Positions 26,411 through 59,793 of a stretch of DNA of 64,000 bases are shown here, in pieces; position 1 is the first letter of the stretch; each line of letters opens with the position of its first letter. Position numbers and translations under genes: made by a program. A model generated the notes under the pieces. It saw nothing but the letters and a program-made list of their open reading frames with translations, did not search any database and was not told the DNA's origin. This DNA comes from Rhodovastum atsumiense (GTDB lineage: Bacteria > Pseudomonadota > Alphaproteobacteria > Acetobacterales > Acetobacteraceae), in assembly GCF_937425535.1 (NCBI RefSeq), contig NZ_OW485602.1, positions 124,001-188,000 of the forward strand. The letters run 5' to 3'.

Positions 26411-28747
26411 TCATGAGATTGCAGCCGCCACAACAGCTTGGCCATAAGCCAGGCCACCGTCACCAGCGGGCACCTCTGCCGGCGCCAGAACCGTGACACC
26501 AGCAGCGCCAAGCCGTATCAAACAAGCATCAAGCAACAGAGCATTCTGGAAAACCCCACCCGCCAGGACAACAGCCATCGCGTTGTGGCCTTCGGCAATC
26601 CGTAGTGCAGTGCTGCAGAATGCCTCCGTCAGTCCAGCATGCAGGCGAGCTGCGACGACCGATGCAGACACTCCCGCCTCTAGATCCGCCAGAAGCGCCG
26701 CCCACATTGGTTCCGGATCGATTGCCCACGGTTCCACCGTCTCGTTCAGGGCGAAGGGATAAGGCTCGGCCTCGACACCGGGGGTGACGAGGGCTTCGAG
26801 CGCCATGGCCGCTTCGCCTTCAAAGCTCATCCGGTCCGGGGCGATGCCGAGTGCCGCTGCCACTGCATCGAACAGTCGGCCGCAAGAGGAGGACAAGGGC
26901 GTATTGATCCGCCGTGCCATCGCCTGCCGCAACAACCCGAGTGGCTTTCCGTGCAGCTTTTCGCCGCCTGGCATGATGGACAGGCGCGCATTGGCGTCCT
27001 CGGGGCCGAAGGCGGTGTCGAGTTGCGCGATCAGGTTGCGCCAGGGTTCCGTCACCGCTCTTGCACCACCCGGCAGCGGCACCGGTCGCAGTCGCGCCAT
27101 GCGTTGGAAGCCCGCATAATCACAGAGCAGGACCTCGCCACCCCAGACGGTGCCGTCTGTGCCGTGACCCAGGCCATCAAGTGCGATGCCAACGACCTTG
27201 CCACCGTCGCGCGGCCACATCCGCTCGGCCATCACTGCCGCGATATGTGCATGATGATGCTGCACATGCAGAAGTGGCAGGCCGCGCGAAGTTGCTTCCG
27301 CTTCTGCCCAGGAAGTGGAACGATAGTCCGGGTGCAGGTCGCAGGCGATGCATGCCGGGGTATGGTCGAATAGCGCGGTGTAGTCGGTGATCGCCTTTTT
27401 GAATTCGTGGAAGGTCGCAGCGTCTTCAAGGTCGCCAAGATGGTGCGAGAGCAGTGCCTGACCGTTATGCAGCAGGCAGATAGCGGATTTCATCTCGCCG
27501 CCAGTCGCCAGCACAGCGGGTGTATCGACAAAACCCGGTGGCAGGGCGCGCGGGGCAGGAGCATAGCCGCGCGCGTGCCGCAGCAACCGCGCCTGTCTGT
27601 GCACCACGCGCGCGACCGAATCATCGAGGCGACGCGCGATCGGGCGGTTGTGCATGAGAAACAGGTCGACAAAGCCGCCGAGCCGGGCCCGTGCCGTCTC
27701 GTTGTCGGTCTCCTGCGGTTCGCCGGAAACATTGCCGCTGGTCATTACCAGAGGTCCGCTGAAATCCTGAAGCAGGATCTGATGCAGCGGGGTGGTTGGC
27801 AACATCCAGCCCAGCGTGGTCTGTCCCGGCGCAACCGAGGCCGCGAGCGTGGCTGGACCGGTGTGGCGCAGCAGCACGATCGGGGCCGCCGGGCTCGCGA
27901 GCAGTGCCGCTTCTTCCCGTGTTATAACGCAAAAGCGATGAATGCCATCAAGATCCGGGGCCATCAGCGCGAAGGGCTTGGCCGGGCGCCGTTTGCGGTG
28001 CCGTAGCGCCACGACCGCTGTCTCGTTTCGGGCGTCACAGGCCAGATGAAAGCCACCGAGTCCCTTGATGCCCAGAATCGCCCCGTTCCGCAATGCCGTC
28101 ACGACAGCCGCCAGCGGATCTTCGACCGGGACGCTGTCTCCCGTTGGTGTTTCCAACCATGCCTGAGGGCCGCAGGAGGGACAGGCAATCGGCTGAGCAT
28201 GGAAGCGGCGGTCGGTGGAATTCTCGTATTCAGCACGACAGGCCGCGCACATGGGAAAGCCGCGCATCGTGGTGTTTGGTCGATCGTACGGAATCGCCGC
28301 AATGATCGAGAAGCGTGGCCCGCAGGCCGTGCAACTGGAAAAAGCGTAACGGTAGCGCCGTTCTGCCGGATCGGCGATCTCCGCCGCGCAAGCGGCACAG
28401 AGCCGGGCGTCGGGCACGACACCCGCGGTGCGCCGTCCACCGGCCGAGGCAGCGATACGGAATCCTGCTGCCAGGGCAGGTGGTGGCAACCAGGCGGAAC
28501 GCTCGATCGCGGTCACGCGCGCGAGGGCCGGTGCTTCCGCAGCGATTGCGCCGACCAGTTCTTCAACTGCCGCTGCTTCGCCGGCGACGTGGATCAGTAC
28601 GCCCTCGGCGTCGTTCCAGACTTCACCGGACAGGCCAAGCCCGTGGGCAAGGCGATGGACGAAGGGACGGAAACCGACACCCTGCACCAGCCCCCGCACC
28701 CGGATGCGTTCCGCCCGTTGCGGTATGTCGCATTGCAGTTGCGTCAT
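26411..28747 (-). CDS. hypF: Carbamoyltransferase HypF (NiFe-hydrogenase maturation)
   Basis: 778 aa, the normal length. Domains in order: acylphosphatase (RVRGLVQGVGFRPFVHRLAH, residues about 16-35), the paired zinc fingers (CAACAAEIADPAERRYRYAF...CTACGP and CAACRAEYENSTDRRFHAQP...CPSCGP), the YrdC-like domain, and the C-terminal carbamoyltransferase domain (VQHHHAHIAAVMAERM, then GIALDGLGHGTDGTVWGGEV). HypF uses carbamoyl phosphate to make the cyanide ligand precursor on HypE. It lies 90 bp after hypA. Confidence 0.97.
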   Translation of the reverse strand: MTQLQCDIPQRAERIRVRGLVQGVGFRPFVHRLAHGLGLSGEVWNDAEGVLIHVAGEAAAVEELVGAIAAEAPALARVTAIERSAWLPPPALAAGFRIAASAGGRRTAGVVPDARLCAACAAEIADPAERRYRYAFSSCTACGPRFSIIAAIPYDRPNTTMRGFPMCAACRAEYENSTDRRFHAQPIACPSCGPQAWLETPTGDSVPVEDPLAAVVTALRNGAILGIKGLGGFHLACDARNETAVVALRHRKRRPAKPFALMAPDLDGIHRFCVITREEAALLASPAAPIVLLRHTGPATLAASVAPGQTTLGWMLPTTPLHQILLQDFSGPLVMTSGNVSGEPQETDNETARARLGGFVDLFLMHNRPIARRLDDSVARVVHRQARLLRHARGYAPAPRALPPGFVDTPAVLATGGEMKSAICLLHNGQALLSHHLGDLEDAATFHEFKKAITDYTALFDHTPACIACDLHPDYRSTSWAEAEATSRGLPLLHVQHHHAHIAAVMAERMWPRDGGKVVGIALDGLGHGTDGTVWGGEVLLCDYAGFQRMARLRPVPLPGGARAVTEPWRNLIAQLDTAFGPEDANARLSIMPGGEKLHGKPLGLLRQAMARRINTPLSSSCGRLFDAVAAALGIAPDRMSFEGEAAMALEALVTPGVEAEPYPFALNETVEPWAIDPEPMWAALLADLEAGVSASVVAARLHAGLTEAFCSTALRIAEGHNAMAVVLAGGVFQNALLLDACLIRLGAAGVTVLAPAEVPAGDGGLAYGQAVVAAAIS

Positions 28748-28837: not shown

Positions 28838-29179
28838 CTAACAGACTTCCATCTCGACCAGGCGCATCTGCATTCCGCCCACGACATCGAGCCGGGTGCT
28901 GCCGCAGGCCGGACAAGTATCGAGGTGAGTTGAAATCGTTGCTTCGGCACCACAGTCCAGGCAGGAAGCCTGTCCCGGTGGCTGGTCGATCTCGAGCCGT
29001 GCCTCCGCGAGGAAAGTCTCGCGTGACGAGACATCGAATGCAAAGCGCAGTGCTTCCGGATCGAGACAGCTCAGTTGGCCGATCTCCAGGCGAAGCCGCT
29101 TCACTTTGGTAAAGCCGCGTCGGCGCCGCTCTTCATCGAGCAGGCCGATCAGTCGTTCGCAGATCGTCAGCTCATGCAT
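28838..29179 (-). CDS. hypA: Nickel-insertion protein HypA
   Basis: 113 aa from the ATG at 29179. The start MHELTICERLIGLL carries the N-terminal MHE nickel-binding motif (His2). The zinc site is built by CLDCGAEATIS and CPACGSTRLDVVGG. HypA hands nickel to the hydrogenase large subunit together with HypB. Its ribosome-binding site lies right next to a strong hairpin pair in the fdhF-hypA gap. Confidence 0.96.
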   Translation of the reverse strand: MHELTICERLIGLLDEERRRRGFTKVKRLRLEIGQLSCLDPEALRFAFDVSSRETFLAEARLEIDQPPGQASCLDCGAEATISTHLDTCPACGSTRLDVVGGMQMRLVEMEVC

Positions 29180-39770: not shown

Positions 39771-41486
39771 ATGAACGCGATATCACACAGCCGGGTCGGC
39801 GCCTCGCACGTCACCTATCTGCGTCAGAAGCTGCCGCATGCCGTGATCGAGGAGCGTTGGCAGGCGGACCGCCAGGTGACTGTCACGGTCAAGCTCGAGC
39901 AGTTGCCGGACGCCGTCTCGACGCTCTATTACGAACGTAACGGCTGGCTTTCGGTCGTGGTCGGCAACGACGAGCGCTCGATCAACGGCAGCTTCGGCAT
40001 CTATTACGTGCTGTCGATGGAAGGCGACGAGAAGTGCCACGTCGTCGTCCATGGCATGGTGCCGGAGGGGAAGGAGGAGTTCCCCTCGGTCACGCCGAAG
40101 GTGCCCGCCTGCGTCTGGGGCGAGCGCGAGCTGCGCGACATGTATGGCCTGCGGCCCATCGGCCTGCCCGATGAGCGGCGTCTGGTGCTGCCGGATGACT
40201 GGCCCGATAACCTGCACCCGCTGCGCAAGGACGCGATGGACTACCGCCTGCGTCCGGAGCCGACCAGCGACAACGAAAACTACCAGTTCCGCAACGATGC
40301 CACCGGCGAGACGACGGTGGTGCCGCTCGGGCCGCTGCACATCACCTCGGACGAGCCGGGCCATTTCCGGCTGTTCGTGGATGGCGAGGACATCATCGAC
40401 GCCGACTACCGGATGTTCTACGTCCATCGCGGCATGGAGAAGGTTGCCGAGACCCGGATGGGCTACAACGAGGTGACCTTCCTCGCTGATCGGGTCTGCG
40501 GCATCTGCGGCTATGCGCACTCGGTCGCCTATACCAGCTCGGTGGAGAACGCGCTTGGTATCGCCGTTCCGGAGCGTGCCCAGGCGATCCGCAGCATCCT
40601 GCTCGAGACCGAACGGCTGCACTCTCACCTGCTGAACCTTGGACTGGTGTGTCATTTCGTCGGCTTCGACACCGGCTTCATGCAGTTCTTCCGCGTGCGG
40701 GAGAAGGCCATGACGCTCGCCGAGATGCTGACCGGTTCGCGCAAGACCTATGCGATCAACCTGATTGGCGGAGTGCGGCGCGATATCCTGGGTGAGCAGC
40801 GGACCCGCACGCTGCAGCTGATCGCCGAGCTGCGCGAGGAGGTGACCCGCCTGCTCGACATCCTGCAGGCGACGCCAAACTTCGAAGGTCGCGTCAAGGG
40901 GGTCGGACTGCTTGCTTCGCAGATCGCCCGTGACTACTCGCCGGTCGGCCCGGTGGTGCGCGGCAGCGGTTTCCGTCGCGACACGCGCGTCGACCATGCC
41001 TTCGCCGGCTATGGCCAGGTGAACCTGCCGGTCCATGTCGGCGAGGACGGCGATGTGCTGTCGCGCACACTGATCCGTGCCGGGGAGTTCTACGACAGTC
41101 TCTCGATCATCGAGCAGTTGCTGGGGGCGATGCCGACCGGTCCGGTGCTGACCGAGGACTTTACCTACAAGCCGTACAAGTTCGCGCTCGGCTTCACCGA
41201 GGCCCCGCGTGGCGAGGATGTCCACTGGTCGATGACCGGCGACAACCAGAAGCTCTATCGCTGGCGCTGCCGGGCCTCGACCTATGCGAACTGGCCGGTG
41301 CTGCGCTACATGCTGCGCGGCAACACCGTTTCGGATGCCCCGCTGATCGTTGGTTCGATCGATCCCTGCTATTCCTGCACCGACCGCGTGACCGTCGTCG
41401 ACGTCCGTAAGGCAAGCAGCAAGACCATTCCCTACAAGGAAATGGAACGCTATTGCCGCGAGCGTAAAGACTCGCCGCTGAAATAA
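39771..41486 (+). CDS. hyfG: HyfG/HycE-like [NiFe]-hydrogenase large subunit (NuoC-NuoD fusion)
   Basis: 571 aa. The first 170 residues are the NuoC-like domain (VPACVWGERELRDMYGLRPI). Nickel-binding motif L1 is DRVCGICGYAHSVAYTSSVE (about residue 240) and L2 is DPCYSCTDR (about residue 531), so all four Ni-site cysteines are present. The C-terminal tail of some 30 residues after CTDR, ending RKDSPLK, is the part removed by HycI after nickel insertion and closely resembles the E. coli HycE tail. This is the H2-forming catalytic subunit, group 4. Confidence 0.97.
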   Translation: MNAISHSRVGASHVTYLRQKLPHAVIEERWQADRQVTVTVKLEQLPDAVSTLYYERNGWLSVVVGNDERSINGSFGIYYVLSMEGDEKCHVVVHGMVPEGKEEFPSVTPKVPACVWGERELRDMYGLRPIGLPDERRLVLPDDWPDNLHPLRKDAMDYRLRPEPTSDNENYQFRNDATGETTVVPLGPLHITSDEPGHFRLFVDGEDIIDADYRMFYVHRGMEKVAETRMGYNEVTFLADRVCGICGYAHSVAYTSSVENALGIAVPERAQAIRSILLETERLHSHLLNLGLVCHFVGFDTGFMQFFRVREKAMTLAEMLTGSRKTYAINLIGGVRRDILGEQRTRTLQLIAELREEVTRLLDILQATPNFEGRVKGVGLLASQIARDYSPVGPVVRGSGFRRDTRVDHAFAGYGQVNLPVHVGEDGDVLSRTLIRAGEFYDSLSIIEQLLGAMPTGPVLTEDFTYKPYKFALGFTEAPRGEDVHWSMTGDNQKLYRWRCRASTYANWPVLRYMLRGNTVSDAPLIVGSIDPCYSCTDRVTVVDVRKASSKTIPYKEMERYCRERKDSPLK

Positions 41487-42041: not shown

Positions 42042-42787
42042 TGAAGATCGACACACCGGCCGACATCCAGCGCATGAAGTCCTCGCTGATGTCGGACATT
42101 CGTCGCTCGGCCTACGTCTACCGGGTCGATTGCGGTGGCTGCAACGGCTGCGAAATCGAGATCTTCGCGTCCATCACACCGATCTTCGATGCCGAACGTT
42201 TCGGCATCAAGGTGGTCGCATCGCCGCGCCATGCCGACATCCTGCTGTTCACCGGTGCGGTGACGCGGGCCATGCGGATGCCGGCGCTGCGTGCCTTCGA
42301 AGCGGCGCCGGATCCGAAGATCGTCGTCTCCTACGGCGCCTGTGGCTGCACGGGCGGCATCTTCCACGATCTCTACTGCGTCTGGGGTGGCACGGATCAG
42401 ATCGTGCCGGTCGACGTCTACATCCCCGGCTGTCCCCCCACGCCTGGCGCCACCATCTACGGCTTTGCCGTGGCGCTGGGCCTGCTCGGCCAGAAGCTGA
42501 AGGCCAGCACGCATGTCGAAGGCGAGGACGAGCGGGTCGGGATTTCCCATCCGATGATCCCGTACAACCTGCGCGTCCATGTGGAGCGCGAGGCACGCCG
42601 CATGGCCGGATACCGCCAGGGCCGTGACATCGCCGAGCGCTTCCTCGGCATGCTGGAAGGCCCTGGGGTGGCGCCGCTCAACGACCGGATCGGGCAGTTC
42701 GTGGCGAGTGAAAGCGATCCGCGTACTGCCGAGATCTTTGCCCGTCTCGGCGAAGTGCTGATCGAAGGGCCCGGCGCAGTGTCATGA
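42041..42787 (+). CDS. hyfI: HyfI/HycG-like [NiFe]-hydrogenase small subunit (NuoB-like)
   Basis: 248 aa. The proximal [4Fe-4S] ligands are in [32 protein letters not shown] and [16 protein letters not shown]. It has no Tat signal peptide, as expected for a cytoplasm-facing group 4 enzyme. It overlaps hyfH by 1 bp and hycH by 4 bp. Confidence 0.96.
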
Positions 42788-43185
42788 CAGGGGAAATCGT
42801 CTTCTACCGTCTCAATGCCAAGATCCTTGAGCGCGAGGAAGACGTGCCGAAGGATGCCCGGGAGGTGGTCTACTATTCGCTTGCGATCGGCCACCATGTC
42901 GGCGTGTTCGACTGCTTCAAGCCGGTGCTGCGCTGCTCGGACGATCTCTACGATCGGCTGGTGGCTGCGCTGCCCGAGGGAGAGGCACGGCGCAAGCTCG
43001 ATGGCTTGCGCCGGTTCGGTGAGATCATGATCGACAAGACCCATACCAGACTGCTCGGCGAGGCGATCGAGCAGGTGCGGCCCGGCCTGGATGCCGAGGT
43101 GGCGGCCTGGTTCAAAGAGCTGGAAATCTCGCTCGCGGCAATCGAGCAGGAGCCTGTCATCTACCTGATGGGACGCCGGAAATGA
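42784..43185 (+). CDS. hycH: Formate hydrogenlyase maturation protein HycH
   Basis: 133 aa. The run [20 protein letters not shown] and the end [15 protein letters not shown] are typical of HycH. The protein acts in maturation of the hydrogenase large subunit; it is not part of the final complex. ATGA overlaps on both sides, so tightly coupled to hyfI and hycI. Confidence 0.93.
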
Positions 43186-43643
43186 CACGGGGGCTGGTGC
43201 TGACCGTCGGCAACAGCCTGATGGGGGATGACGGTGCGGGACCGCTGCTGGCCGAGTTGCTCGAAGCGGAACCAGCAGAAGGCTGGTCGGTGATCGACGG
43301 CGGCGCGACGCCGGAAAACGTCATGCATGCCGTGCGTGCCGAGGCACCCGAGCGGGTGTTGCTGGTCGATGCCGCGGATATGCAACTGGAACCCGGTGCG
43401 GTTCGCCGCATCGGGGAAGGTGATGTTGCCAGGCAATTCCTGATCAACACGCACGCGATCCCGCTCGACGTGCTGATCGCTTCGATCAGGGAGACAGTAC
43501 CCCACGTGACCTTCGTCGGCATTCAGCCGGTGCGGGTGACGTTCTTTGGTGAAATGACGCCGGCCGTCAGGGCCGCGGTCGAGGATCTGCATCGCAGACT
43601 CGTCGCGGGCGACGAGCCGGACGAGTGGCCCGCCGTTACCTAA
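43182..43643 (+). CDS. hycI: Hydrogenase maturation endopeptidase HycI
   Basis: 153 aa. The motif LTVGNSLMGDDGAGPLLAEL contains the conserved GN-x-LMGDD with the nickel-sensing Asp. A second Asp region is VLLVDAADMQLEPG, and FLINTHAIPLDVL supplies the conserved His. It cleaves the C-terminal tail of the HyfG-like large subunit after nickel insertion. It is transcribed directly after hycH. Confidence 0.95.
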   Translation: MTRGLVLTVGNSLMGDDGAGPLLAELLEAEPAEGWSVIDGGATPENVMHAVRAEAPERVLLVDAADMQLEPGAVRRIGEGDVARQFLINTHAIPLDVLIASIRETVPHVTFVGIQPVRVTFFGEMTPAVRAAVEDLHRRLVAGDEPDEWPAVT

Positions 43644-43741: not shown

Positions 43742-44644
43742 ATGGCTGAAAGTGATGGGGCCAAAAAGTCCGAGGTATTCGGCTCGGACGCCTATTCGCC
43801 GGCCCAGATCCAGGACAAAGTCGAAAAGCTCGGTATCACCAAGGCGCGCATGCCTTTCCTGCCCGAGTTCATGCTGGCGGCCGTTGCCGGCGGTTCGATC
43901 GGCCTGGGTGGCATGTTCTTCTCGATTGTGCTTGCGGACCCGACGCTCGGCTTCGCGATCCAACGCGTCCTGGGCGGGTTCTTATTCTCGCTTGGACTGG
44001 CGCTGGTGATGATCGGCGGCGCCGAGCTTTTCACCGGAAATTGCCTGATCGTGATGGCCTGGTGGAATGGCCAGATCAAGACGTCAGAGGTGATCCGCAA
44101 CTGGATCATCGTCTGGCTGGGTAACCTGGTCGGTGCGCTCGGTCTCGTTTTCCTGCTCTACATGTCGCATTTCGCCGATCTCAACAACGGCGGCACCGGT
44201 ACTGCGTTGCTGAAGCTCGCGGCCAGCAAGATCGCGCCTGATGAAGTGACGATCTTCTTCAAAGGCATCATGTGCAACCTGCTGGTCTGCCTGGGCGTGT
44301 GGCTTGCCTATGCCGGCCGCTCGGTGGCCGACAAGATGGCCGGCATGGTGCTGCCGGTGGCCTGCTTCGTCGCCGCCGGGTTCGAGCACTGCATTGCCAA
44401 CATGTTCTTCCTGCCCATGGCCTGGCTGCTGGCGGTAACCGGCCATGTTCCGGCCGGGTTCGATGCCTCCACCATCACGCTGGCCGGCATCGTCCACAAC
44501 ATCATCCCGGCGACGCTGGGTAACATCGTCGGCGGCGCGGGCTTCGTTGGCTTCGTCTACTGGATCATCTACCGCAAGGGCCTCGGCGGTCTGACGCCGC
44601 TGCCCCCGCGGCCTGGCAAGGCTGCGATCGTGGCCGGCGAGTAA
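43742..44644 (+). CDS. focA: FocA-like formate/nitrite transporter
   Basis: 300 aa from the ATG at 43742, preceded by GTGAGGAGG. Six membrane helices with the FNT motifs GGAELFTGNCLIVMAW, FFKGIMCNLLVCLGVWLAY and AAGFEHCIANMFFLPMAWL; the central His is in GFEHC. Pentameric formate channel in the inner membrane. Placed in the FHL operon, so formate is the likely substrate; the length of the N-terminus resembles FocA. Confidence 0.93.
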   Translation: MAESDGAKKSEVFGSDAYSPAQIQDKVEKLGITKARMPFLPEFMLAAVAGGSIGLGGMFFSIVLADPTLGFAIQRVLGGFLFSLGLALVMIGGAELFTGNCLIVMAWWNGQIKTSEVIRNWIIVWLGNLVGALGLVFLLYMSHFADLNNGGTGTALLKLAASKIAPDEVTIFFKGIMCNLLVCLGVWLAYAGRSVADKMAGMVLPVACFVAAGFEHCIANMFFLPMAWLLAVTGHVPAGFDASTITLAGIVHNIIPATLGNIVGGAGFVGFVYWIIYRKGLGGLTPLPPRPGKAAIVAGE

Positions 44645-44785: not shown

Positions 44786-45026
44786 CATGGCTTCGGCGAA
44801 GGTCGGCAGCCAGGTCCGCATCACCTGCAACGGGCACCTGGCGCTCCACCTCGGCGGCATTGCCGCAGCGGATCTTCATGCCGCACAATACGTCAATGAC
44901 AGCAATCATGACATCGCTGCCGCGATCGAGGCAGCAGGCGTGCGCAAATCGGTCGGCCGTGATGGCGCACCGACGCCGTCCGCCCTGCCCGTGGTCGCCG
45001 GCGGCATGAACGCGGCCGGCGGGTGA
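44786..45026 (+). CDS. Possible small protein between focA and the HupK-like gene
   Basis: 80 codons including the stop (MASAKVGSQVRITCNGHLAL...). The stop TGA is just before the HupK-like start. It has no recognisable motif and only a weak ribosome-binding site. The sequence looks protein-like (VNDSNHDIAAAIEAAGVRKS), but in such GC-rich DNA this is weak evidence. The rest of the 44645-45028 gap holds nothing I can name. Confidence 0.3.
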
Positions 45027-45028
45027 GC

Positions 45029-46138
45029 ATGGCATCCGAGGGCATCCCAGCGCCGTCTGCCGGAACTGGACGCGAGCGACTGGATGCCGGCGTGGTCCGC
45101 ATCACGGCGGCGCTTGCCGGCGACATCGTGACCCTGGCCGATGTCCGCAGCGAACGGCCGCGCCATCTCGCCGCGGCGCTCGCGCGCCATCCGGCGTCGA
45201 CCATCCCGGACCTGGCGCGGCGCCTGTTCGCGCTGTGCGGCACATCGCAGGCGATCGCCGCGCGACAGGCGCTCGGCATGGCGGGGGCGGAGGTCCCGGT
45301 TCCCGATCCTGCCCTCGTTCTGCGGCAACTCGCGGCCGAACGCATCACGGCGCATCTGCAGGCGACCTTCATGGGCTGGAATACGGCCGTTCCGGTGAAC
45401 CCGATGGAGGCCATCGCCATGTCCCGCGCGTTGGCGGCCGTGCGCGAAGCCGATATCCGGTGCGATGCACTGATCGAGGCGCTGACGGCGCTGGGGATCT
45501 CGGCCACGCCCCAGGCCGGATCCTGGGGGGCACGTCTGCTTGCATTGGCTGGTGAGGATGGAGCCGCACCGGTGCGGCCTGACCCGCTCACTGCCGCCGA
45601 TGACGCGCAGGTGCTGGCGGCCCTGGACGCGCAGGGTGAAGCCTTTGCGGCTGTTCCGTCCCTGCCGGGCCGGCGACCGGAAGTGGGGGCAGCGGCACGG
45701 GCGGCACGGCGCGGCCTTCTGGTCACGTCATCGGCGAGCCGGCTCGCTGCGCGCCTGGCCGAAATCGTTTCGTCATCACGATATCTTGCCGGAACCGAGG
45801 CATTCGATCCGGCCGAGTGGATCGTCGCGGGCCGGCTCGGGCCAGGTACGGGGTTCTGTGCGGTCGAGACGCCGCGCGGCCGGCTGCATCATCTGGTGCG
45901 GCTCGGCCCGGACGGAGCGGTGCTGCGGTATCTGATCGTGGCACCAACGGAATGGAACTTCGCCGGCGACGGACCGTTTTCCATCGCACTCCGTGGCCTG
46001 CGGGTCGGCGCGGCGGCCCGTCCCGCCATCGAGCGCCTCGCTGCGCTCTACGATCCTTGCGTCGCCTGTGCCATCGAGGTGCACCGTCTGCCGCAACACG
46101 ATGACCGGTTCCCGGTGCCGGACAATGAGGGCGGCTGA
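45029..46138 (+). CDS. HupK-like degenerate [NiFe]-hydrogenase large-subunit paralogue
   Basis: 369 aa. Layout of a hydrogenase large subunit shrunk to about two thirds: an L1-like region LARRLFALCGTSQAIAARQA (about residue 68) keeps one Cys of the usual RxCGxC...H, and a C-terminal ALYDPCVACAIEVHRL (about residue 342) keeps a complete DPCxxC motif. This is the pattern of HupK, thought to scaffold the cofactor of the large subunit during maturation. It sits between focA and fdhD. An enzyme role is unlikely because L1 is broken. Confidence 0.75.
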   Translation: MASEGIPAPSAGTGRERLDAGVVRITAALAGDIVTLADVRSERPRHLAAALARHPASTIPDLARRLFALCGTSQAIAARQALGMAGAEVPVPDPALVLRQLAAERITAHLQATFMGWNTAVPVNPMEAIAMSRALAAVREADIRCDALIEALTALGISATPQAGSWGARLLALAGEDGAAPVRPDPLTAADDAQVLAALDAQGEAFAAVPSLPGRRPEVGAAARAARRGLLVTSSASRLAARLAEIVSSSRYLAGTEAFDPAEWIVAGRLGPGTGFCAVETPRGRLHHLVRLGPDGAVLRYLIVAPTEWNFAGDGPFSIALRGLRVGAAARPAIERLAALYDPCVACAIEVHRLPQHDDRFPVPDNEGG

Positions 46139-46247
46139 TGTGGAGGGGCGACGATTGCAGTCCCAGTGTGGCCGGGACCATGCTTTTGGGAAGGCGCCTT
46201 TCCCCGGAGCGGGAAACCGCAGCGCATCATCAATCGGAACGGAATGC

Positions 46248-47108
46248 ATGACCATGTTCCCTGTGTGGCGTGAGATCAGTGCGCAGCGTATCGGCCAGGC
46301 TCCGGGCACGGCGATCGTTGCCGAGGAAACGCCGATCGGCCTTCTGTACAACGGCGTGCCGCATGCCGTGATGATGGCCACGCCGGCCGATCTCGAGGAT
46401 TTCGCCGTCGGCTTCTCGCTGACCGAGGATATCGTACGGGCCGCCTCCGAGATTCGCGGCATCGATGTCCGTGAAACGGCGGATGGGGTCGAACTGGATG
46501 TCCTGCTCGCCCCTGAGCGCTTCCACGCTTTTCTCTCCCGCCGGCGTACCCGCAGCCTGCGCGGCCATACGAGCTGCGGCCTGTGCGGCGTGGAGGAGAT
46601 CGCCGACGCCTGCAGCATGACGCCCCGGGCGCCGGCCGGCAGTAGCTTCACCCCGGCCGCCCTGCAACACGCGCTGGCCATGTTGTCCTCGCAGCAGGAG
46701 CTGAACCGGCGCACCCGGGCCACGCACGCCGCCGCCTGGGTGTCGGTGGAGGGGGAGATTCTGCTGGTCCGGGAAGATGTTGGCCGTCACAACGCGCTCG
46801 ATAAGCTGATCGGGGCGGCGCTGCGACAGGGCATCGACCTCGCCGCCGGATTCTGCCTGATCACCAGCCGCTGCTCCTATGAGATGGTGCAGAAGGCGCT
46901 GATGGCGGGAATGCCGGCGATCGTGGCCATTTCCGCGCCGACGGCGCTGGCTGTCCGTGCGGCCGAGGCCGCCGGGCTCACGCTTGTCGCGCTGGCCCGG
47001 GCCGACGGACAGAATGTCTATGCCGGGCCGCAGCGTATCCGTGACCTGTTGCCCGGCGATGCCGTGCCGGTCGGTGATGTGACGATCCCAGGGAAACCCC
47101 TGGGGTAA
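46248..47108 (+). CDS. fdhD: Formate dehydrogenase sulfurtransferase FdhD
   Basis: 286 aa from the ATG at 46248 (a second ATG two codons on). The catalytic cysteine pair is in GHTSCGLCGVEEI (about residue 108). EEGEILLVREDVGRHNALDK-like sequence (GEILLVREDVGRHNALDKLI) and TSRCSYEMVQKALMAGMPAI are family signatures. FdhD passes sulfur from IscS to the Mo cofactor of formate dehydrogenases. No fdsC is present in the fds operon, so it probably serves all formate dehydrogenases here. Confidence 0.96.
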   Translation: MTMFPVWREISAQRIGQAPGTAIVAEETPIGLLYNGVPHAVMMATPADLEDFAVGFSLTEDIVRAASEIRGIDVRETADGVELDVLLAPERFHAFLSRRRTRSLRGHTSCGLCGVEEIADACSMTPRAPAGSSFTPAALQHALAMLSSQQELNRRTRATHAAAWVSVEGEILLVREDVGRHNALDKLIGAALRQGIDLAAGFCLITSRCSYEMVQKALMAGMPAIVAISAPTALAVRAAEAAGLTLVALARADGQNVYAGPQRIRDLLPGDAVPVGDVTIPGKPLG

Positions 47109-51316: not shown

Positions 51317-52132
51317 ATGTGCACGACATGCGGATGCAGTGGTGCCGGAGTGTCGGCTGTGACGGCCCATGCACATGATGGCCATCACCACGACCACGAT
51401 CATGGCCACCACCACCACCATCATCACGATGGATCACCGGATGCGCATGCGCACGGTGACGACGGTGTCGTTTCACGCACGATCTCGCTGGAGCGCGACA
51501 TCCTCGCCGAGAATGATCGCTTTGCCGGGCAGAACCGTGCGCGCTTCGCCAGGGCCGGGGTGCTGGCGCTGAATTTCGTCTCCAGCCCCGGTTCGGGCAA
51601 GACGACGCTGCTCGTGAGCACCATCAAGGCCCTCGGCGGCCGTGTGCCGGCCGCGGTGATCGAGGGCGACCAGCAGACCAGCAACGACGCCGAGCGCATC
51701 CGTGCCGCCGGAGCCCCTGCGGTGCAGATCAATACCGGCAAGGGCTGCCATCTGGATGCGCACATGGTCGGCCATGCCTGCGATCATCTCGACCTTGTCC
51801 GCGGCGGCGTGCTGTTCATCGAGAATGTCGGCAACCTCGTCTGCCCCGCGGCCTTCGATCTCGGCGAAGCGACCAAGGTGGCGGTCATCTCCGTCACCGA
51901 GGGGGACGACAAGCCGATCAAGTATCCCGACATGTTCGCCGCTGCCGGGCTCGTGCTGGTCAACAAGGTCGACCTCGCACCCTATGTGGACGCCGACATC
52001 GCCGCGCTCACGGCCAATGCACGGCGGGTGAACCCTTCTGTCGAGGTGCTGGCACTTTCGGCGCGCACCGGCGAAGGCATGGACGCCTGGCTCGCCTGGC
52101 TCGAGGCGCGGCGTCTCGCGGCGATGGGCTGA
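51317..52132 (+). CDS. hypB: Nickel-binding GTPase HypB with long His-rich N-terminus
   Basis: 271 aa. The N-terminus MCTTCGCSG contains the high-affinity nickel site CxxCGC. Residues 18-46 carry 16 histidines, a nickel-storage stretch. The GTPase domain has [20 protein letters not shown] (P-loop), [19 protein letters not shown] and [12 protein letters not shown] (NKxD). The intersubunit nickel site [11 protein letters not shown] is present. HypB loads nickel into hydrogenase with HypA. First gene of hypBCDE. Confidence 0.97.
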
Positions 52133-52140
52133 GGCACGCC

Positions 52141-52419
52141 ATGTGCCTGGGCGTCCCCGCGCAGATCGTCGCCATCACCGATTCCGATCGGATGCTCGCA
52201 CTCGCCGAGGTGGCGGGCGTCCGGCGTGAAGTCAACGTGCTCTGCGTCGCCGAGCCCGAGGAGGATCTCGCGGCCCTGCTTGGCGTCTGGGTCCTCGTGC
52301 ATGTCGGCTTCGCGGTCTCCCGCCTCGACGAAGCCGAAGCACAGGCCACGCTCGAGCTGCTCGCCGCGACGGGCCTTGCCGAGGAGGGATTCTCCGCCGG
52401 CGCCGCCCCGGCACCGTGA
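52141..52419 (+). CDS. hypC: Hydrogenase maturation chaperone HypC
   Basis: 92 aa. MCLGVPAQIVAITDSD has the conserved N-terminal MCLGxP with catalytic Cys2, and GVWVLVHVGFAVSRLDEAEA the second motif. It lies in the canonical hypB-C-D-E order, 8 bp after hypB. This copy is of normal length, unlike the one at 47502. Confidence 0.95.
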   Translation: MCLGVPAQIVAITDSDRMLALAEVAGVRREVNVLCVAEPEEDLAALLGVWVLVHVGFAVSRLDEAEAQATLELLAATGLAEEGFSAGAAPAP

Positions 52420-52438
52420 GGACCATGAAGGCTTCCGC

Positions 52439-53590
52439 ATGAAATTCGCCGACGAATTCCGCGACCCCGCGCAGGCGCGGGCGCAGCTCGCGCGTATCGC
52501 CCGCCTTGCCGACGCGATCGGCGCGACCCGTGCCAGGCCGGTCACCATCATGGAGATCTGCGGCGGGCACACGCACACGATCTTTCGCCATGGGCTCGAC
52601 CGCCTGGTGCACGATGGCATCGAGTTCGTGCACGGCCCGGGATGCCCGGTCTGCGTGCTGCCACAAGCGCGCGTCGACGAATGCATCGAGATCGCCCGCC
52701 GCCCCGGCGTGGTGCTGACGACCTTCGGCGATGCCGTGCGGGTGCCGGGCACGCAGGGCTCTCTGCTGGCGGCCAAGGCACAGGGGGCGGACGTGCGGAT
52801 CGTCTACTCTCCGCTCGATGCGTTGGCGCTCGCGCGGCGCATGCCAGATCGCGAGGTGGTGTTCTTCGCGCTTGGCTTCGAGACCACCATGCCCGCGACG
52901 GCTGCCACGGTGCTGCAGGCGGCGCGCGAGGACATCGGCAATTTCTCGCTGTTCTGCAACCACATCACCGTGCCCCCCCCGTTGCGCGCACTGCTCGAGG
53001 ATCCGCAGATGCGCATCGACGGCTTCATCGGCCCGGGCCATGTCAGCATGGTGATCGGCCTGCAGCCCTACCAGTTCATCGCCGAGGAATTCCGCCGCCC
53101 GGTCGTGGTCTCGGGGTTCGAGCCGGTCGATCTGCTGCAATCGGTGGCGATGGTGCTTGAGCAACTCGCCCAGGGGCGTGCCGAGGTGGAGAACCAGTAC
53201 GCCCGCGTGGTGCGGGCTGACGGCAACCCGCGGGCGCTCGCGGCCATCGACGCGGTGTTCGAGCCACGGGAGAGCTTCGAGTGGCGTGGGCTCGGCGAGA
53301 TCGACCGGTCCGGCATGCGCATGCGCGAGCGCTGGGCCGGCTTCGATGCCGAACGCAAATTCGGCATCGGCTATGGCGGCACGCGCGCTCGCCCTGCCAC
53401 GGAACTGGCCGGGTGCCGGTGCGGCGACGTGGTGAAGGGGGCGATGAAGCCGCCTGCTTGTCCCCTGTTCGGCACGGCCTGCCGGCCGGAGACGCCGGTC
53501 GGCGCGCTGATGGTTTCCTCGGAGGGATCCTGTGCGGCTTACTGGCAATATGCCGGCCGACGTGGTGCGGCGGCGGAGGTGACGGCATGA
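52439..53590 (+). CDS. hypD: Hydrogenase Fe-ligand assembly protein HypD
   Basis: 383 aa from the ATG at 52439. MEICGGHTHTIFRHGLDRL and HGPGCPVCVLPQARVDEC hold the conserved iron-binding Cys. The C-terminal [4Fe-4S] region includes ELAGCRCGDVVKGAMKPPAC, PLFGTACRPETPVGA and MVSSEGSCAAYWQY. HypD and HypC assemble the Fe(CN)2CO unit. The stop overlaps hypE (ATGA). Confidence 0.97.
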   Translation: MKFADEFRDPAQARAQLARIARLADAIGATRARPVTIMEICGGHTHTIFRHGLDRLVHDGIEFVHGPGCPVCVLPQARVDECIEIARRPGVVLTTFGDAVRVPGTQGSLLAAKAQGADVRIVYSPLDALALARRMPDREVVFFALGFETTMPATAATVLQAAREDIGNFSLFCNHITVPPPLRALLEDPQMRIDGFIGPGHVSMVIGLQPYQFIAEEFRRPVVVSGFEPVDLLQSVAMVLEQLAQGRAEVENQYARVVRADGNPRALAAIDAVFEPRESFEWRGLGEIDRSGMRMRERWAGFDAERKFGIGYGGTRARPATELAGCRCGDVVKGAMKPPACPLFGTACRPETPVGALMVSSEGSCAAYWQYAGRRGAAAEVTA

Positions 53591-54621
53591 CAAGGCGCCT
53601 GACCGGGACGGTGACGCTCGCCCATGGTGGCGGCGGGCGGGCGATGCGGGATCTGGTGGCCGGGGTGTTCCTGCCGGCCTTCGACAATCCCGCGCTGGGC
53701 CAGTTGGAGGATCAGGCGCGGCTCGATGCGGGGGCACTGGCCGTGCCGGGCGCGCGGCTTGCCTTCACCACTGATGGTTTCGTGGTGCGCCCTTTGGAAT
53801 TTCCGGGTGGGGATATCGGCAAGCTCGCGGTCTGCGGCACGGTGAACGACCTCGCCGTGGGCGGGGCGACGCCGCTGTGGCTGTCCTGTGCCGTGGTCAT
53901 CGAGGAAGGCTTCGAGATCGAGCGGCTGCAGCGCATCATCGGCTCGATGCGGGCAGCGGCGGCAGAGGCCGGGGTCGCGATCGTCACCGGTGACACCAAG
54001 GTGGTGGAGCGTGGCGCGGCCGATGGGCTGTTCATCACCACGGCGGGGGTGGGCGTGTTGCCGCCCGGGCGGGACCTGGCGGCTGCGCATGTGCGGCCGG
54101 GCGATGTGGTGCTGGTCAACGGCCCGCTCGGCGATCATGGCGCGGCGGTGATGGCCGCGCGCGGCGATCTCGCGCTGGAAACATCGCTGGTCAGCGACTG
54201 CCGTCCCCTCAACGGGCTGATGGCCGCCCTGCTCGCCGCCGCCCCCGGCACGCGCTGCGCCCGCGATGCCACGCGCGGCGGCGTCGCCGCGGTGCTGAAC
54301 GAGATCGCCGAAGCCGCCGGCCGTGCGGTGACGATCGAGGAAGCCCAGATCCCGGTGCGTTCGGAAGTTGCCGGGCTGTGCGAGATCCTCGGCCTCGATC
54401 CGCTCTATCTCGCCAACGAGGGCACCGCCATCGCGGTGGTGCCGTCCGACGAGGCCGAGGCCGCGCTCGCGGCCTGGCGCGCGCATCCCGCCGGGGTGGA
54501 GGCCCGCGCCATCGGCCGGATCGCCGAGGGACCGGCCGGTGAGGTGGTGCTGCGCACCCGGCTGGGCGGCGAGCGCCTGGTCGACCTGCTGGTCGGCGAC
54601 CAGTTGCCGCGGATCTGCTGA
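53587..54621 (+). CDS. hypE: Carbamoyl-dehydratase HypE
   Basis: 344 aa from the ATG at 53587. VTLAHGGGGRAMRDLVAGVF is the conserved start, PLEFPGGDIGKLAVCGTVND the nucleotide-binding part, and the protein ends PRIC, with the C-terminal Cys that carries the thiocyanate. HypE dehydrates the HypF-made thiocarbamate to give cyanide. The gene ends 5 bp from the convergent fdsD. Confidence 0.97.
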   Translation: MTRRLTGTVTLAHGGGGRAMRDLVAGVFLPAFDNPALGQLEDQARLDAGALAVPGARLAFTTDGFVVRPLEFPGGDIGKLAVCGTVNDLAVGGATPLWLSCAVVIEEGFEIERLQRIIGSMRAAAAEAGVAIVTGDTKVVERGAADGLFITTAGVGVLPPGRDLAAAHVRPGDVVLVNGPLGDHGAAVMAARGDLALETSLVSDCRPLNGLMAALLAAAPGTRCARDATRGGVAAVLNEIAEAAGRAVTIEEAQIPVRSEVAGLCEILGLDPLYLANEGTAIAVVPSDEAEAALAAWRAHPAGVEARAIGRIAEGPAGEVVLRTRLGGERLVDLLVGDQLPRIC

Positions 54622-54912: not shown

Positions 54913-57753
54913 TCATTCGGCGGCCGGCGCGGTGCTGACCCGCCGGCTGGCCTCGCTGTGGCGCCGGTAGGCTTCCTGCCAGTCGCTCGGGCCGTTCGAG
55001 CCCGAGACCTGCACCGCCGTCACCTTGTATTCGGGACAATTGGTCGCCCAATCCGAAAAATCCGTGGTCACCACGTTGGCCTGGGTCAGGGGGTGGTGGA
55101 ACGTGGTGTAGACCACGCCGATTACCACGCGATCGGTGACGCGCAGCCGCAGCGTGGTTTCCCCCGAACGGCTGGCGAGCCGTACCCAGTCGCCGTCGCG
55201 CAATCCCCGGTGCTCGGCATCATGGGGATGCATCTCCAGCACATCTTCCTCGTGCCAGACGACATTCGCGGTGCGCCGGGTCTGCGCCCCGACATTGTAC
55301 TGGCTCAGAATACGACCGGTGGTCAGCAGCAGCGGGAAGCGCGGTCCGGTTCGCTCCTCGGTGGGGATGTACTCGGTCAGCACGAACAGGCCGCGCCCGC
55401 GCGCGAAGCCATCGATATGCATGACCGGGGTACCTTCCGGTGCTGTCGTGTTGCAGGGCCACTGCACCGAGCCCCGCTGCTCCAGCAGATCGTAGCTGAC
55501 GCCGGCGAAGCCTGGGGTGAGCCGTGCGATCTCGTCCATGATTTCGGAGGGATGCGCGTAATTCCAGCCATGCCCGAAGCCGCGTGCCAGGGCCTGGGTG
55601 ATCTCCCAGTCGGCCATGCCGTTGCGTGGCGGCATCACCCGCCGCACCCGGTTGATCCGCCGTTCGGCGTTGGTGAAGGTGCCGTCCTTTTCCAGGAAGG
55701 TCGATCCCGGCAGGAAGACATGGGCGAAGTTCGCCGTCTCGTTCAGGAACAGGTCCTGTACCACGACGCATTCCATTGCCGACAGCCCGGCCGCCACGTG
55801 CTGCGTGTCCGGATCGGATTGCGCGATGTCCTCGCCCTGGACATAAAGCGCCTTGAAGCTGCCGGCGATCGCCGCATCCAGCATGTTCGGGATGCGCAGG
55901 CCGGGCTCACGCTCCAGCGGAACGCCCCAGGCGGCTTCGAAGAGGGCGCGGGTGGCATCGTCGCCGACATGGCGGTAGCCCGACAACTCGTGCGGAAACG
56001 AGCCCATGTCGCAGGAGCCCTGGACGTTGTTCTGTCCCCGCAGCGGATTCACCCCAACGCCGGGCCGGCCGATATTGCCGGTCGCCATCGCCAGGTTGGC
56101 GATCGCCATCACCGTGGTGCTGCCCTGGCTGTGCTCGGTCACGCCCAGGCCGTAATAGATCGCGGCATTGCCGCCGGTCGCGTACAGCCGCGCCGCGCCA
56201 CGGATCACCCCGGCTGGTACGCCGCTGATGCGCTCGATGGCCTCCGGGCTGTGGCGCGGTTCGGCGACGAAGGCGGCCCAGTCCTCGAAGGCGTCGCTCT
56301 CGCAGCGGGCCTGCACGAACGCGGTGTCGACCAGCCCTTCGGTGACGATCACATGCGCGATCGAAGTCAGCACCGCGACATTGGTGCCGGGGCGCAAGGC
56401 CAGATGATAGGCCGCCTCGACATGCGGCGTGCGCACCAGATCGATGCGGCGTGGATCGATGATGATCAGCTTCGCCCCCTGGCGCAGCCGCCGCTTCAGG
56501 CGGGAGGCGAAGACCGGGTGGCCGTCGGTCGGGTTGGCGCCGATCACCATCACCACGTCGCAGTGTTCGACGCTGTCGAAATCCTGCGTGCCCGCCGAGG
56601 TGCCGAAGGTGGTCTTCAGACCGTAGCCGGTCGGCGAGTGGCAGACGCGGGCGCAGGTATCGACATTGTTGGTGCCGAAGACGGTGCGGACCAGCTTCTG
56701 CACCAGGAACGTCTCTTCATTGGTGCAGCGCGAGGAGGTGATGCCGCCGAGCGAACCCGGCCCATGCGTCTCGCGGATGCGGCTGAATTCGGTGACGACA
56801 TGGGCAATCGCCTCCTCCCAGCTGACCTCGCGCCAGGGATCGGTGATGCGCGCCCGCAGCATCGGCCGCAGGATGCGGTCGCGATGCGTGGCATAGCCCC
56901 AGGCGAAGCGGCCCTTGACGCAGGAATGGCCGCGATTGGCCGCGCCGTCCCGATGCGGCACCATGCGCACCAGTTCGGCCCCGCGCAGCTCGGCGCGGAA
57001 GCTGCAGCCGACGCCGCAATAGGCGCAGGTGGTGACGACCGCACGTTCCGGCTGTCCGGTTTCGATCACGGATTTCTCGATCAGCGTCGCGGTCGGGCAG
57101 GCCTGCACGCAGGCACCGCAGGAGACGCATTCGGAGCCGAGCAGCGCCTCCCCCATGCCGGCGGCGACCTGGGAGCCGAAGCCACGGCCGGCGATGGTCA
57201 GCGCGAAGGTTCCCTGCGTTTCCTCGCAGGCGCGCACGCAGCGCGAGCACAGGATGCATTTGGCCGGATCGAAGGCGAAATACGGGTTGCTTTCGTCCTT
57301 GCTCGCCGAGAGGTGGTTTGCGCCCGTGGCGTAGCGCACCGAGCGCAGCCCGACCTCGCCCGCCATGTCCTGCAGCTCGCAATCGCCATTGGCCGCGCAG
57401 GTCAGGCAGTCGAGCGGATGGTCGGAGATGTAGAGTTCCATCACGTTGCGCCGCAGCCGCTGCAGCTTCGGCGTTTGTGTCCAGACCTGCATGCCGGCCG
57501 CCACCGGCGTGGTGCAGGAGGCCGGCGTTCCCGGGCGGCCTTCGATTTCCACCAGGCACAGCCGGCACGAGCCGAAAGCCTGCAGCGAATCCGTGGTGCA
57601 CAGGCGCGGGACCTTGATGCCCGCCTGCATGGCGGCACGCATGATGGAGGTGCCCTCCGGCACCTCCACTGCATTGCCGTCGATGACCAGCCGCACCTGC
57701 CGCCCGGATGCGACCGGCGGCGTTCCGTAATCGGTGTCGCGCATCAGGCCCAT
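54913..57753 (-). CDS. fdsA: NAD-dependent formate dehydrogenase catalytic subunit FdsA
   Basis: 946 aa from the ATG at 57753, preceded by GGAGGA. The NuoG-like N-terminus binds a [2Fe-2S] (AFGSCRLCLVEIEGRPGTPA) and several [4Fe-4S] clusters (CLTCAANGDCELQ, CILCSRCVRACEETQG, CVSCGACVQACPTAT, CAYCGVGCSF). The Mo site is TCARVCHSPTGYGLKTTFGT, where Cys ligates molybdenum, followed by His. The soluble complex oxidises formate with reduction of NAD+. No Tat signal. Confidence 0.96.
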   Translation of the reverse strand: MGLMRDTDYGTPPVASGRQVRLVIDGNAVEVPEGTSIMRAAMQAGIKVPRLCTTDSLQAFGSCRLCLVEIEGRPGTPASCTTPVAAGMQVWTQTPKLQRLRRNVMELYISDHPLDCLTCAANGDCELQDMAGEVGLRSVRYATGANHLSASKDESNPYFAFDPAKCILCSRCVRACEETQGTFALTIAGRGFGSQVAAGMGEALLGSECVSCGACVQACPTATLIEKSVIETGQPERAVVTTCAYCGVGCSFRAELRGAELVRMVPHRDGAANRGHSCVKGRFAWGYATHRDRILRPMLRARITDPWREVSWEEAIAHVVTEFSRIRETHGPGSLGGITSSRCTNEETFLVQKLVRTVFGTNNVDTCARVCHSPTGYGLKTTFGTSAGTQDFDSVEHCDVVMVIGANPTDGHPVFASRLKRRLRQGAKLIIIDPRRIDLVRTPHVEAAYHLALRPGTNVAVLTSIAHVIVTEGLVDTAFVQARCESDAFEDWAAFVAEPRHSPEAIERISGVPAGVIRGAARLYATGGNAAIYYGLGVTEHSQGSTTVMAIANLAMATGNIGRPGVGVNPLRGQNNVQGSCDMGSFPHELSGYRHVGDDATRALFEAAWGVPLEREPGLRIPNMLDAAIAGSFKALYVQGEDIAQSDPDTQHVAAGLSAMECVVVQDLFLNETANFAHVFLPGSTFLEKDGTFTNAERRINRVRRVMPPRNGMADWEITQALARGFGHGWNYAHPSEIMDEIARLTPGFAGVSYDLLEQRGSVQWPCNTTAPEGTPVMHIDGFARGRGLFVLTEYIPTEERTGPRFPLLLTTGRILSQYNVGAQTRRTANVVWHEEDVLEMHPHDAEHRGLRDGDWVRLASRSGETTLRLRVTDRVVIGVVYTTFHHPLTQANVVTTDFSDWATNCPEYKVTAVQVSGSNGPSDWQEAYRRHSEASRRVSTAPAAE

Positions 57754-57766
57754 GGCCGGTCCTCCG

Positions 57767-59320: not shown

Positions 59321-59793
59321 GGGCCACCCTGCCCGAGCGCCGCCGTTTCCAGGGAGGTCGCATCGAGCCGCCCCACCGGCTCGCCATCCACCAGGGCGGC
59401 CGGCGCGCAGGCGCACAGCCCCAGGCAATAGACCGGCTCGATCGTCAGCCGCCCATCCGGTGTCGTATCCCCCCAGTCAAGGCCAAGCCGGCGCATCAGG
59501 GAATCTGCCAGCGCCTCGCCGCCCATGGACTGGCAGGCTTCCGCCCGGCACAGCTTCACCACGCGCCGTCCCGGAGGATGCTGGCGAAACTCGTGGTAGA
59601 AGCTGACGACCCCATGCACTTCGGCGCGCGACAGGTTCAACGCCTCTGCCAGCATGGGGATCGCTGCCTGCGGGATATGGCCAAATGCGTGCTGAAGCGC
59701 ATGCAGCATCGGCAGCAATGCACCCGGACGGCCTGCTTCCGCCGCGATCAGCGCCTGTGCCGCCTGGCCGTCCCAGGGCCGGTATGTGCCCAT
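59317..59793 (-). CDS. fdsG: NAD-dependent formate dehydrogenase gamma subunit FdsG
   Basis: 158 aa, NuoE-like. The [2Fe-2S] ligands are in VKLCRAEACQSMGGEAL and PVYCLGLCACAPAALVDGE. The helical N-terminal part has AEVHGVVSFYHEFRQHPPGR, typical of FdsG/NuoE. First structural gene of the leftward fdsG-B-A-D operon. Confidence 0.95.
   Translation of the reverse strand: MGTYRPWDGQAAQALIAAEAGRPGALLPMLHALQHAFGHIPQAAIPMLAEALNLSRAEVHGVVSFYHEFRQHPPGRRVVKLCRAEACQSMGGEALADSLMRRLGLDWGDTTPDGRLTIEPVYCLGLCACAPAALVDGEPVGRLDATSLETAALGQGGP

Follow-up and report, generated by a model that had tools for sequence, protein, structure and literature searches.

A HupK-type hydrogenase large subunit encoded in a formate hydrogenlyase island of Rhodovastum atsumiense and its probable service to uptake hydrogenases encoded elsewhere

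Introduction

In the available portions of two sources, HoxV is described as carrying the Fe(CN)2CO unit without nickel and acting between HypCD and the hydrogenase large subunit, and HupK is described as binding both HypC and HupF (PMC3534401, PMC12134894). The accessible part of the first of these places hupK between hupF and hypC in all 21 genomes with these genes (PMC3534401). According to the available sections of a 2025 review, some HoxV-bearing bacteria make hydrogenase only anaerobically, and the role of HoxV-type proteins is among the open questions (PMC12134894).

The present analysis concerns a hupK-like gene in a stretch of 64,000 nucleotides from R. atsumiense (assembly GCF_937425535.1, contig NZ_OW485602.1, positions 124,001 to 188,000), which as a whole is referred to as the window. 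Here the gene is not flanked by hupF and hypC; its neighbors in a formate hydrogenlyase (FHL) island are a moaA remnant and fdhD, and hupF is encoded on a different contig. The hupF-hupK-hypC placement is a feature of the context and not of the protein, and the copies in Azospirillum sp. B510 and Rhodovulum sp. PH10 do not have it either.

Materials and Methods

A scan of 84,980 species genomes for HupK gave at least 545 confirmed places, the best 80 of which were kept as loci. The HupK alignment comprised the window protein and 54 homologues out of these 80 loci; 24 loci were excluded manually (close duplicates, L070 because of an in-frame stop, and the short L087), L049 and L073 were dropped for stops in the automatic trim, and L039 was restored with a corrected end. 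The HupK tree was built from 41 chosen rows, and the Hup tree from joined HupS, HupL, HupD, HupF and HupH sequences of 29 genomes, with HupC left out. PF00374 alone does not separate HupK from HupL, and full-length matches were therefore used. The genome under study is rated 100% complete.

Results

The reading frame of hupK is intact, with its stop at 46138, and the gene order of the surrounding island (Table 1) is hypF and hypA (minus strand), fdhF and a 4Fe-4S protein gene (also minus strand), a second 4Fe-4S protein gene, hyfB-I, hycH, hycI, focA, the moaA remnant, hupK, fdhD, a divergent hypC, a LysR gene, mobB, moeA, hypB, hypC, hypD, and hypE. Because hupK sits inside the FHL island, its co-expression with FHL is predicted and likely. 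A reading made from the DNA letters only (the sequence-only reading) had described a HyfG-type subunit, HycH, HycI, FocA, and FdhD as neighbors, and the family matches bear this out; it had also put hupK between focA and fdhD, and fdhD does come next, but the moaA remnant separates focA from hupK. This remnant matches the C-terminal part of MoaA from PH10 with 47.0 bits, the highest score among 200 shuffles being 23.9, and its TGA overlaps the GTG start of hupK; a Pfam search of the 122-aa ORF that holds it matched no family. The protein between focA and fdhD in PH10 is MoaA (TIGR02666), encoded by an intact gene in an FHL island that has focA-moaA-fdhD and no hupK. We infer that hupK of the window lies just 3' of an older moaA that has since decayed.

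No sigma-54-like site was found on the plus strand between the focA stop and hupK. Sigma-54-like patterns in the window at large were set aside, as the 101 patterns stand against a shuffle mean of 84 and this number was reached by 4 of 100 shuffles. The divergent HypC1 near fdhD has a long C-terminal tail and scores 42.4 bits with TIGR00074, slightly below the cut-off of 48. Adjoining the island, at 54913-59793 on the minus strand, another formate dehydrogenase is encoded; it has parts that resemble NuoG and NuoF and would by inference be of the NAD type.

Table 1. Features of the window around hupK (positions are those of the window).
Feature	Coordinates	Strand	Remarks
Intact moaA	25139..26125	-	TIGR02666 362 bits
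hypF	26411..28747	-	TIGR00143 757.6 bits
hypA	28841..29179	-	TIGR00100 107 bits; one of two seen, the other in the hup operon
hyfG-type (group 4) FHL large subunit	39771..41486	+	80% to Azospirillum HyfG, 81% to PH10 HyfG
hycH	42784..43185	+	NF011664 168 bits, over cut-off
hycI endopeptidase	43182..43643	+	TIGR00142 137 bits, over cut-off
focA formate channel	43745..44644	+	PF01226 236.6 bits; TIGR04060 226 bits, below cut-off 290
moaA C-terminal remnant	44808..45026 (start approximate)	+	39% over 72 aa to PH10 MoaA
hupK-like gene	45023..46138	+	371 aa; start GTG 45023 or ATG 45029
fdhD	46200..47108 (start approximate)	+	TIGR00129 212 bits, over cut-off
HypC1, divergent HypC-like chaperone, 129 aa	47502..47891	+	PF01455 45.7 bits, over cut-off
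hypB	51317..52132	+	51-64% to hypB-like stretches of hup loci and the PH10 FHL island
hypC (HypC/HybG type, HypC2)	52141..52419	+	TIGR00074 69.5 bits, over cut-off
hypD	52433..53590	+	PF01924, single match in the whole genome
hypE	53590..54621	+	TIGR02124 438 bits

The profile PF00374 (NiFeSe_Hases, Pfam) matches residues 224-351 of the window HupK with 45.1 bits (cut-off 25.8, E 8.9e-12), phmmer searches of the PDB retrieve F420-reducing and group 1 large subunits (best E 4.5e-9), and a full-length HupK profile that includes the window sequence gives 477.6 bits. Homology extends over the full length, with 48-51% identity over 351-360 columns to the HupKs of Magnetospirillum fulvum and Blastochloris, both hup-operon copies. 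The sequence-only reading had seen a HupK-type large subunit with a broken L1 motif and an intact DPCxxC, and this description holds: L1 reads RLFALC, with the first cysteine lost (F at position 69) and the second (C72) kept, and the C-terminal motif is DPCVAC. Both CxxC motifs would be complete in a catalytic large subunit, and RLFALC is not. In the alignment the first L1 cysteine is missing from 55/55 HupKs, C72 and the DPC cysteine C346 are present in 55/55, and the last cysteine of DPCxxC (window position 349) is kept in 6/55 including the window protein and replaced by Phe in 35/55. The broken L1 is thus the rule of the family, and the intact DPCxxC is the unusual feature of the window HupK; the loss of the last cysteine, with Phe in those 35 proteins, restricts the ways in which an Fe unit could be bound.

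In [NiFe] hydrogenases, the pocket around the CN ligands of the iron is lined by the APRG arginine and by the PT(T/S)WN stretch. All 55 HupKs have R285, G286, P308, T309, and E310, and the residues expected around the Fe unit (C72, C346, R285, P308, and T309) are each invariant (55/55). An invariant Fe pocket with the Ni ligands partly lost fits a holder of Fe(CN)2CO. The window protein keeps 21 of the 22 residues that are invariant in its 54 homologues, the other rows keeping at least 95% of theirs, and 30 of the 33 positions conserved in 95% of rows, a share equal to that of the lowest-scoring other row.

An AlphaFold2 model built with 55 sequences has a mean pLDDT of 91.9 and a pTM of 0.88, with high confidence from residue 21 to residue 350 (block means 85-98). 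This model superimposes on 1cc1_L with Z 27.3 (306 residues, rmsd 3.1) and on HoxG (3rgw_L) with Z 24.1, and Foldseek relates it to an F420-reducing hydrogenase chain (E 6e-10). A protein unrelated to the large-subunit fold, the outcome that the sequence-only reading had set against itself, is therefore excluded, and the predicted structure supports the assignment of the window protein as a HupK/HoxV-type degenerate [NiFe]-hydrogenase large subunit.

The PF00374 search of the genome gave six places, namely two full-length group 1 large subunits on contig C1, hyfG, the window HupK, and two N-terminal matches, which are taken for complex I-like subunits. A search of the genome for another HupK found none, the sole other match having E 0.027. 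Both group 1 uptake hydrogenases (HupL at C1:5598393 and the second at C1:4247278) are encoded on another contig than hupK. The hup operon (C1:5597k) comprises hupS-L-C-D-F-H-I-hypA and a gene for a sigma-54-type regulator, with hupC recognized by eye as a cytochrome b and hupI encoding a rubredoxin; it holds neither hupK nor hypBCDEF, and no hupK remnant was found between hupI and hypA. The second uptake enzyme (C1:4247k) is encoded by hupS and hupL (62 and 66% identical to the first) and a hupD-like gene. In searches of the genome, hypD was found once, in the FHL island, and zf-HYPF likewise only there, as two fingers of one hypF gene. HypC/HupF proteins (PF01455) number three genome-wide, of which the window encodes two and the hup operon the third, so that at least two such paralogues accompany HupK in this genome. 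Because the only HypD and HypF found lie there, the island is probably a maturation hub for FHL and both uptake enzymes, and because each is single in a genome of this completeness, the uptake enzymes most likely draw their HypD and HypF from it. A further complex I/group 4-like membrane cluster lies at G000:C1:2410000-2424000 (L011); its large-subunit-like protein (C1:2416500) matches PF00374 in the N-terminal part only and has an ending like those of the CxxC-less proteins described below.

Among the best 80 of at least 545 HupK places, hypA lies directly downstream of hupK in 79, the sole locus without it being that of Rhodovulum sp. PH10 (L038). Of these 79 (again from the best 80 of at least 545), 70 carry in the fetched stretch a HupL with 70% identity or more, one (L047) has a more distant HupL (58%), and eight have hupH or hypA only, six of them on stretches of at most 15.1 kb and two (L039 and L102) on full 21-kb stretches. 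A factor specific for FHL would be expected to recur beside hyfG, and a HyfG at least 45% identical was present in the fetched stretch of none of the 80 (best 80 of at least 545). In the same-genus genome G004, HupK (41% over 366 columns) is encoded in a full hup operon, where hypA-hypB-hypC-hypD-hypE follow immediately, and in G001 HupK (42% over 367 columns) lies between hupH-hupI and hypA to hypE, with no close hupSL in the 40 kb read around it. The HupS and HupL of G004 are 85 and 84% identical to those of the genome under study; the window HupK is only 41-42% identical to the same-genus HupKs, against 84% for HupL.

Close HyfG was found in 2 of 49 HupK-bearing genomes (81 and 83%), further matches reaching at most 38%; in the second of these, that of L070, hupK stands before hypA with hupH, as usual, and has an in-frame stop. 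In a sample of the phylum, 11/398 genomes, own included, have a close HyfG, and the ten others gave no full-length HupK, four of them showing partial HupK matches only, in frames of at least 565 residues. Class-wide sampling for FHL (E 1e-80) gave 1/385 genomes, which is the genome under study.

In five loci (L048, L050, L056, L084, and L103; continuations L216-L220), four from Pleomorphomonas and one from a Proteobacteria MAG, a Hyf-like membrane cluster directly follows hypE on the same contig, and HupK can therefore neighbor group 4-like genes. These clusters contain genes resembling those for HyfB, C, E, F, G, and I of the window, with 28-48% identity; the large subunits are 28-29% identical to HyfG and lie beyond the stretch used for the 80-locus HyfG count. 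No CxxC motif was found in these five large subunits or in the one encoded some 20 kb away from the G001 hupK, and the same test found both motifs in PH10 HyfG. Judged by their sequences, the clusters behind the hup-hyp genes are taken for complexes without a NiFe site, presumably of the class named Ehr, and would therefore have no such site to load.

The hupK gene stands apart from the hup operon in two further organisms. In Azospirillum sp. B510, focA is next to fdhD in the FHL region (pAB510b) and the hup operon (pAB510c) also has no hupK, which is found on pAB510d with hypB, hypC, and hypE; in the 24 kb read around it there are no structural hydrogenase genes, and hupE is present. The protein from this replicon (L187:11131-12327, plus strand) is annotated "nickel-dependent hydrogenase large subunit." In PH10, a single ORF of 1090 residues (L038:9998-13270, plus strand) joins HupK to a complete HypF; the HypF part lies at 351-1086 (TIGR00143 703 bits), moeA follows, and the hup operon has neither hupK nor hypF. 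A weak HupK match in the PH10 hup operon (L189, ~13.5 kb) was dropped, because it aligned to parts of the query ORF upstream of the likely HupK start, and was read as hupJ in another frame. A literature search of titles and abstract openings returned no HupK in an FHL island and no HupK-HypF fusion; to our mind, the fusion is a more telling oddity than the window HupK.

In the HupK tree the window protein falls into a clade with PH10, M. fulvum, and Blastochloris (99/95) and not with the HupKs of its own genus, and the inner order of this clade is unsure (85/48). In the Hup tree, the hup operon of the genome and the one of the same-genus G004 are sisters (99), and a separate group (99) unites PH10, M. 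fulvum, and Blastochloris. Because the two trees disagree on the nearest kin of the window, a horizontal replacement is suggested, and it is likely, though not proven, that the hup operon lost its native hupK and that a foreign one replaced it in the island. Forcing the window protein together with the same-genus HupKs lowered the likelihood by 22 log units and gave an AU p of 0.052, in a test chosen after the tree had been seen, and because of this value the foreign placement of HupK is not itself decisive.

Discussion

The window HupK is an ordinary HupK found at an unusual location, and relocation to the maturation hub of the genome explains that location best. The protein probably acts in trans for the group 1 uptake hydrogenase or hydrogenases encoded on the other contig, with the island as a hub for these and for FHL. 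The sequence-only reading had offered a scaffold for the HyfG-like subunit or for a hydrogenase elsewhere; the second is better supported, because the hup operon is without hupK, because HypD and HypF were found only in the island, and because of the context of the 80 loci, and a dedicated FHL role is not favored. The survey of HupK by neighboring hydrogenase that it had suggested found HupL of at least 70% identity in the fetched stretches of 70/80 loci and close HyfG in those of 0/80 (best 80 of at least 545). It had also envisaged an uptake operon elsewhere that co-evolves with HupK; an uptake operon exists, but the HupK and Hup trees disagree, and co-evolution of HupK with its presumed client HupL is therefore not supported.

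In the proposed mechanism, HupK would be a catalytically dead large-subunit fold that holds Fe(CN)2CO received from HypCD and passes it to HupL. HypF and HypE would make the cyanides, HypC2-HypD would build Fe(CN)2CO, HupK would take it over, and HupF from the hup operon would carry it to HupL. The client would be the HupL at C1:5598393 and perhaps also the enzyme at C1:4247278, and binding of Fe(CN)2CO without nickel is proposed by extension from the published work on HoxV. The gene may have arrived in the FHL island by horizontal replacement beside the decaying moaA, and the island would then be a hub for hydrogenases of two groups, with HupK serving the uptake enzymes. That hupK lies apart from the hup operon here, in Azospirillum sp. 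B510, and in PH10 suggests that HupK works beside the enzymes that build the cofactor and is not part of the hydrogenase complex. The client is testable in this genome, where one HupK is encoded together with the sole HypD and HypF detected and at a distance from the two uptake enzymes.

A more far-reaching proposal is that the FHL island captured HupK, a device so far tied to uptake hydrogenases, and that HupK now also loads HyfG; the intact DPCxxC, which provides three of the four active-site cysteines, would fit it for a group 4 enzyme, and the proposal is put forward tentatively, as rather unlikely. HupK may instead be shared as a general store beside the single HypCD, buffering Fe(CN)2CO for both HupL and HyfG. 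Such a store is in keeping with the location of hupK in the FHL island that also has the single hypD detected, and with the PH10 polypeptide in which HupK is fused to the pleiotropic enzyme HypF, but FHLs without HupK work, as in E. coli, close hyfG is absent from the fetched stretches of all 80 HupK loci (best 80 of at least 545), and in 10/10 sampled genomes, own excluded, a close HyfG occurs without full-length HupK. Even with the suggestion, in the available sections of the 2025 review, that some HoxV/HupK proteins might provide protective or transient storage of Fe(CN)2CO (PMC12134894), this sharing is unlikely.

Recruitment of HupK as a dedicated scaffold for HyfG is quite improbable. 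The FHL stretches read in Azospirillum sp. B510 and PH10, with HyfG 80-81% identical, are without hupK, and under this reading the group 1 enzymes of the genome would be left without a known HupK; the position between focA and fdhD, the two HypC-like chaperones in the island, and the divergence from same-genus HupKs speak for it, but 21/22 invariant residues are kept and none of the 54 aligned HupKs has a close hyfG in its fetched stretch. That HupK is a stranded, non-functional relic carried along with the island, as its abutment on a decayed moaA and the disagreement of its phylogeny with that of the host's Hup proteins might suggest, is highly improbable in view of the intact ORF, the same 21/22 residues, and the model that is confident throughout residues 21-350.

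The window HupK can be set beside four known systems. The HupKs of Rhizobium leguminosarum and other rhizobia are likewise degenerate large subunits with the second L1 cysteine only, APTEWNF, and DPC; in the rhizobial copies read, the genes lie in the hup operon before hypA and the proteins mostly end in DPCVxF, whereas the window gene belongs to an FHL island, away from hupSL, and its product ends in DPCVAC. This ending is shared by the HupKs of M. fulvum (48%) and Blastochloris sulfoviridis (51%), which are among the nearest in sequence and in the tree but are encoded in complete hup operons, and a search for close HyfG found none in their genomes. The HoxV gene of Cupriavidus necator (Ralstonia eutropha) belongs to the MBH gene cluster. 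In the available sections of the review HoxV is proposed to be a scaffold of Fe(CN)2CO for an O2-tolerant group 1 large subunit, and the likeness to the window HupK is drawn from this proposed function (PMC12134894). The HupK-HypF protein of Rhodovulum sp. PH10 resembles the window protein in its 48% identical HupK part, in its location apart from the hup operon, and in the presence of FHL in the genome, and differs in that HupK is fused to HypF, is encoded away from the FHL operon, and has a HupK part ending in DPCVGT.
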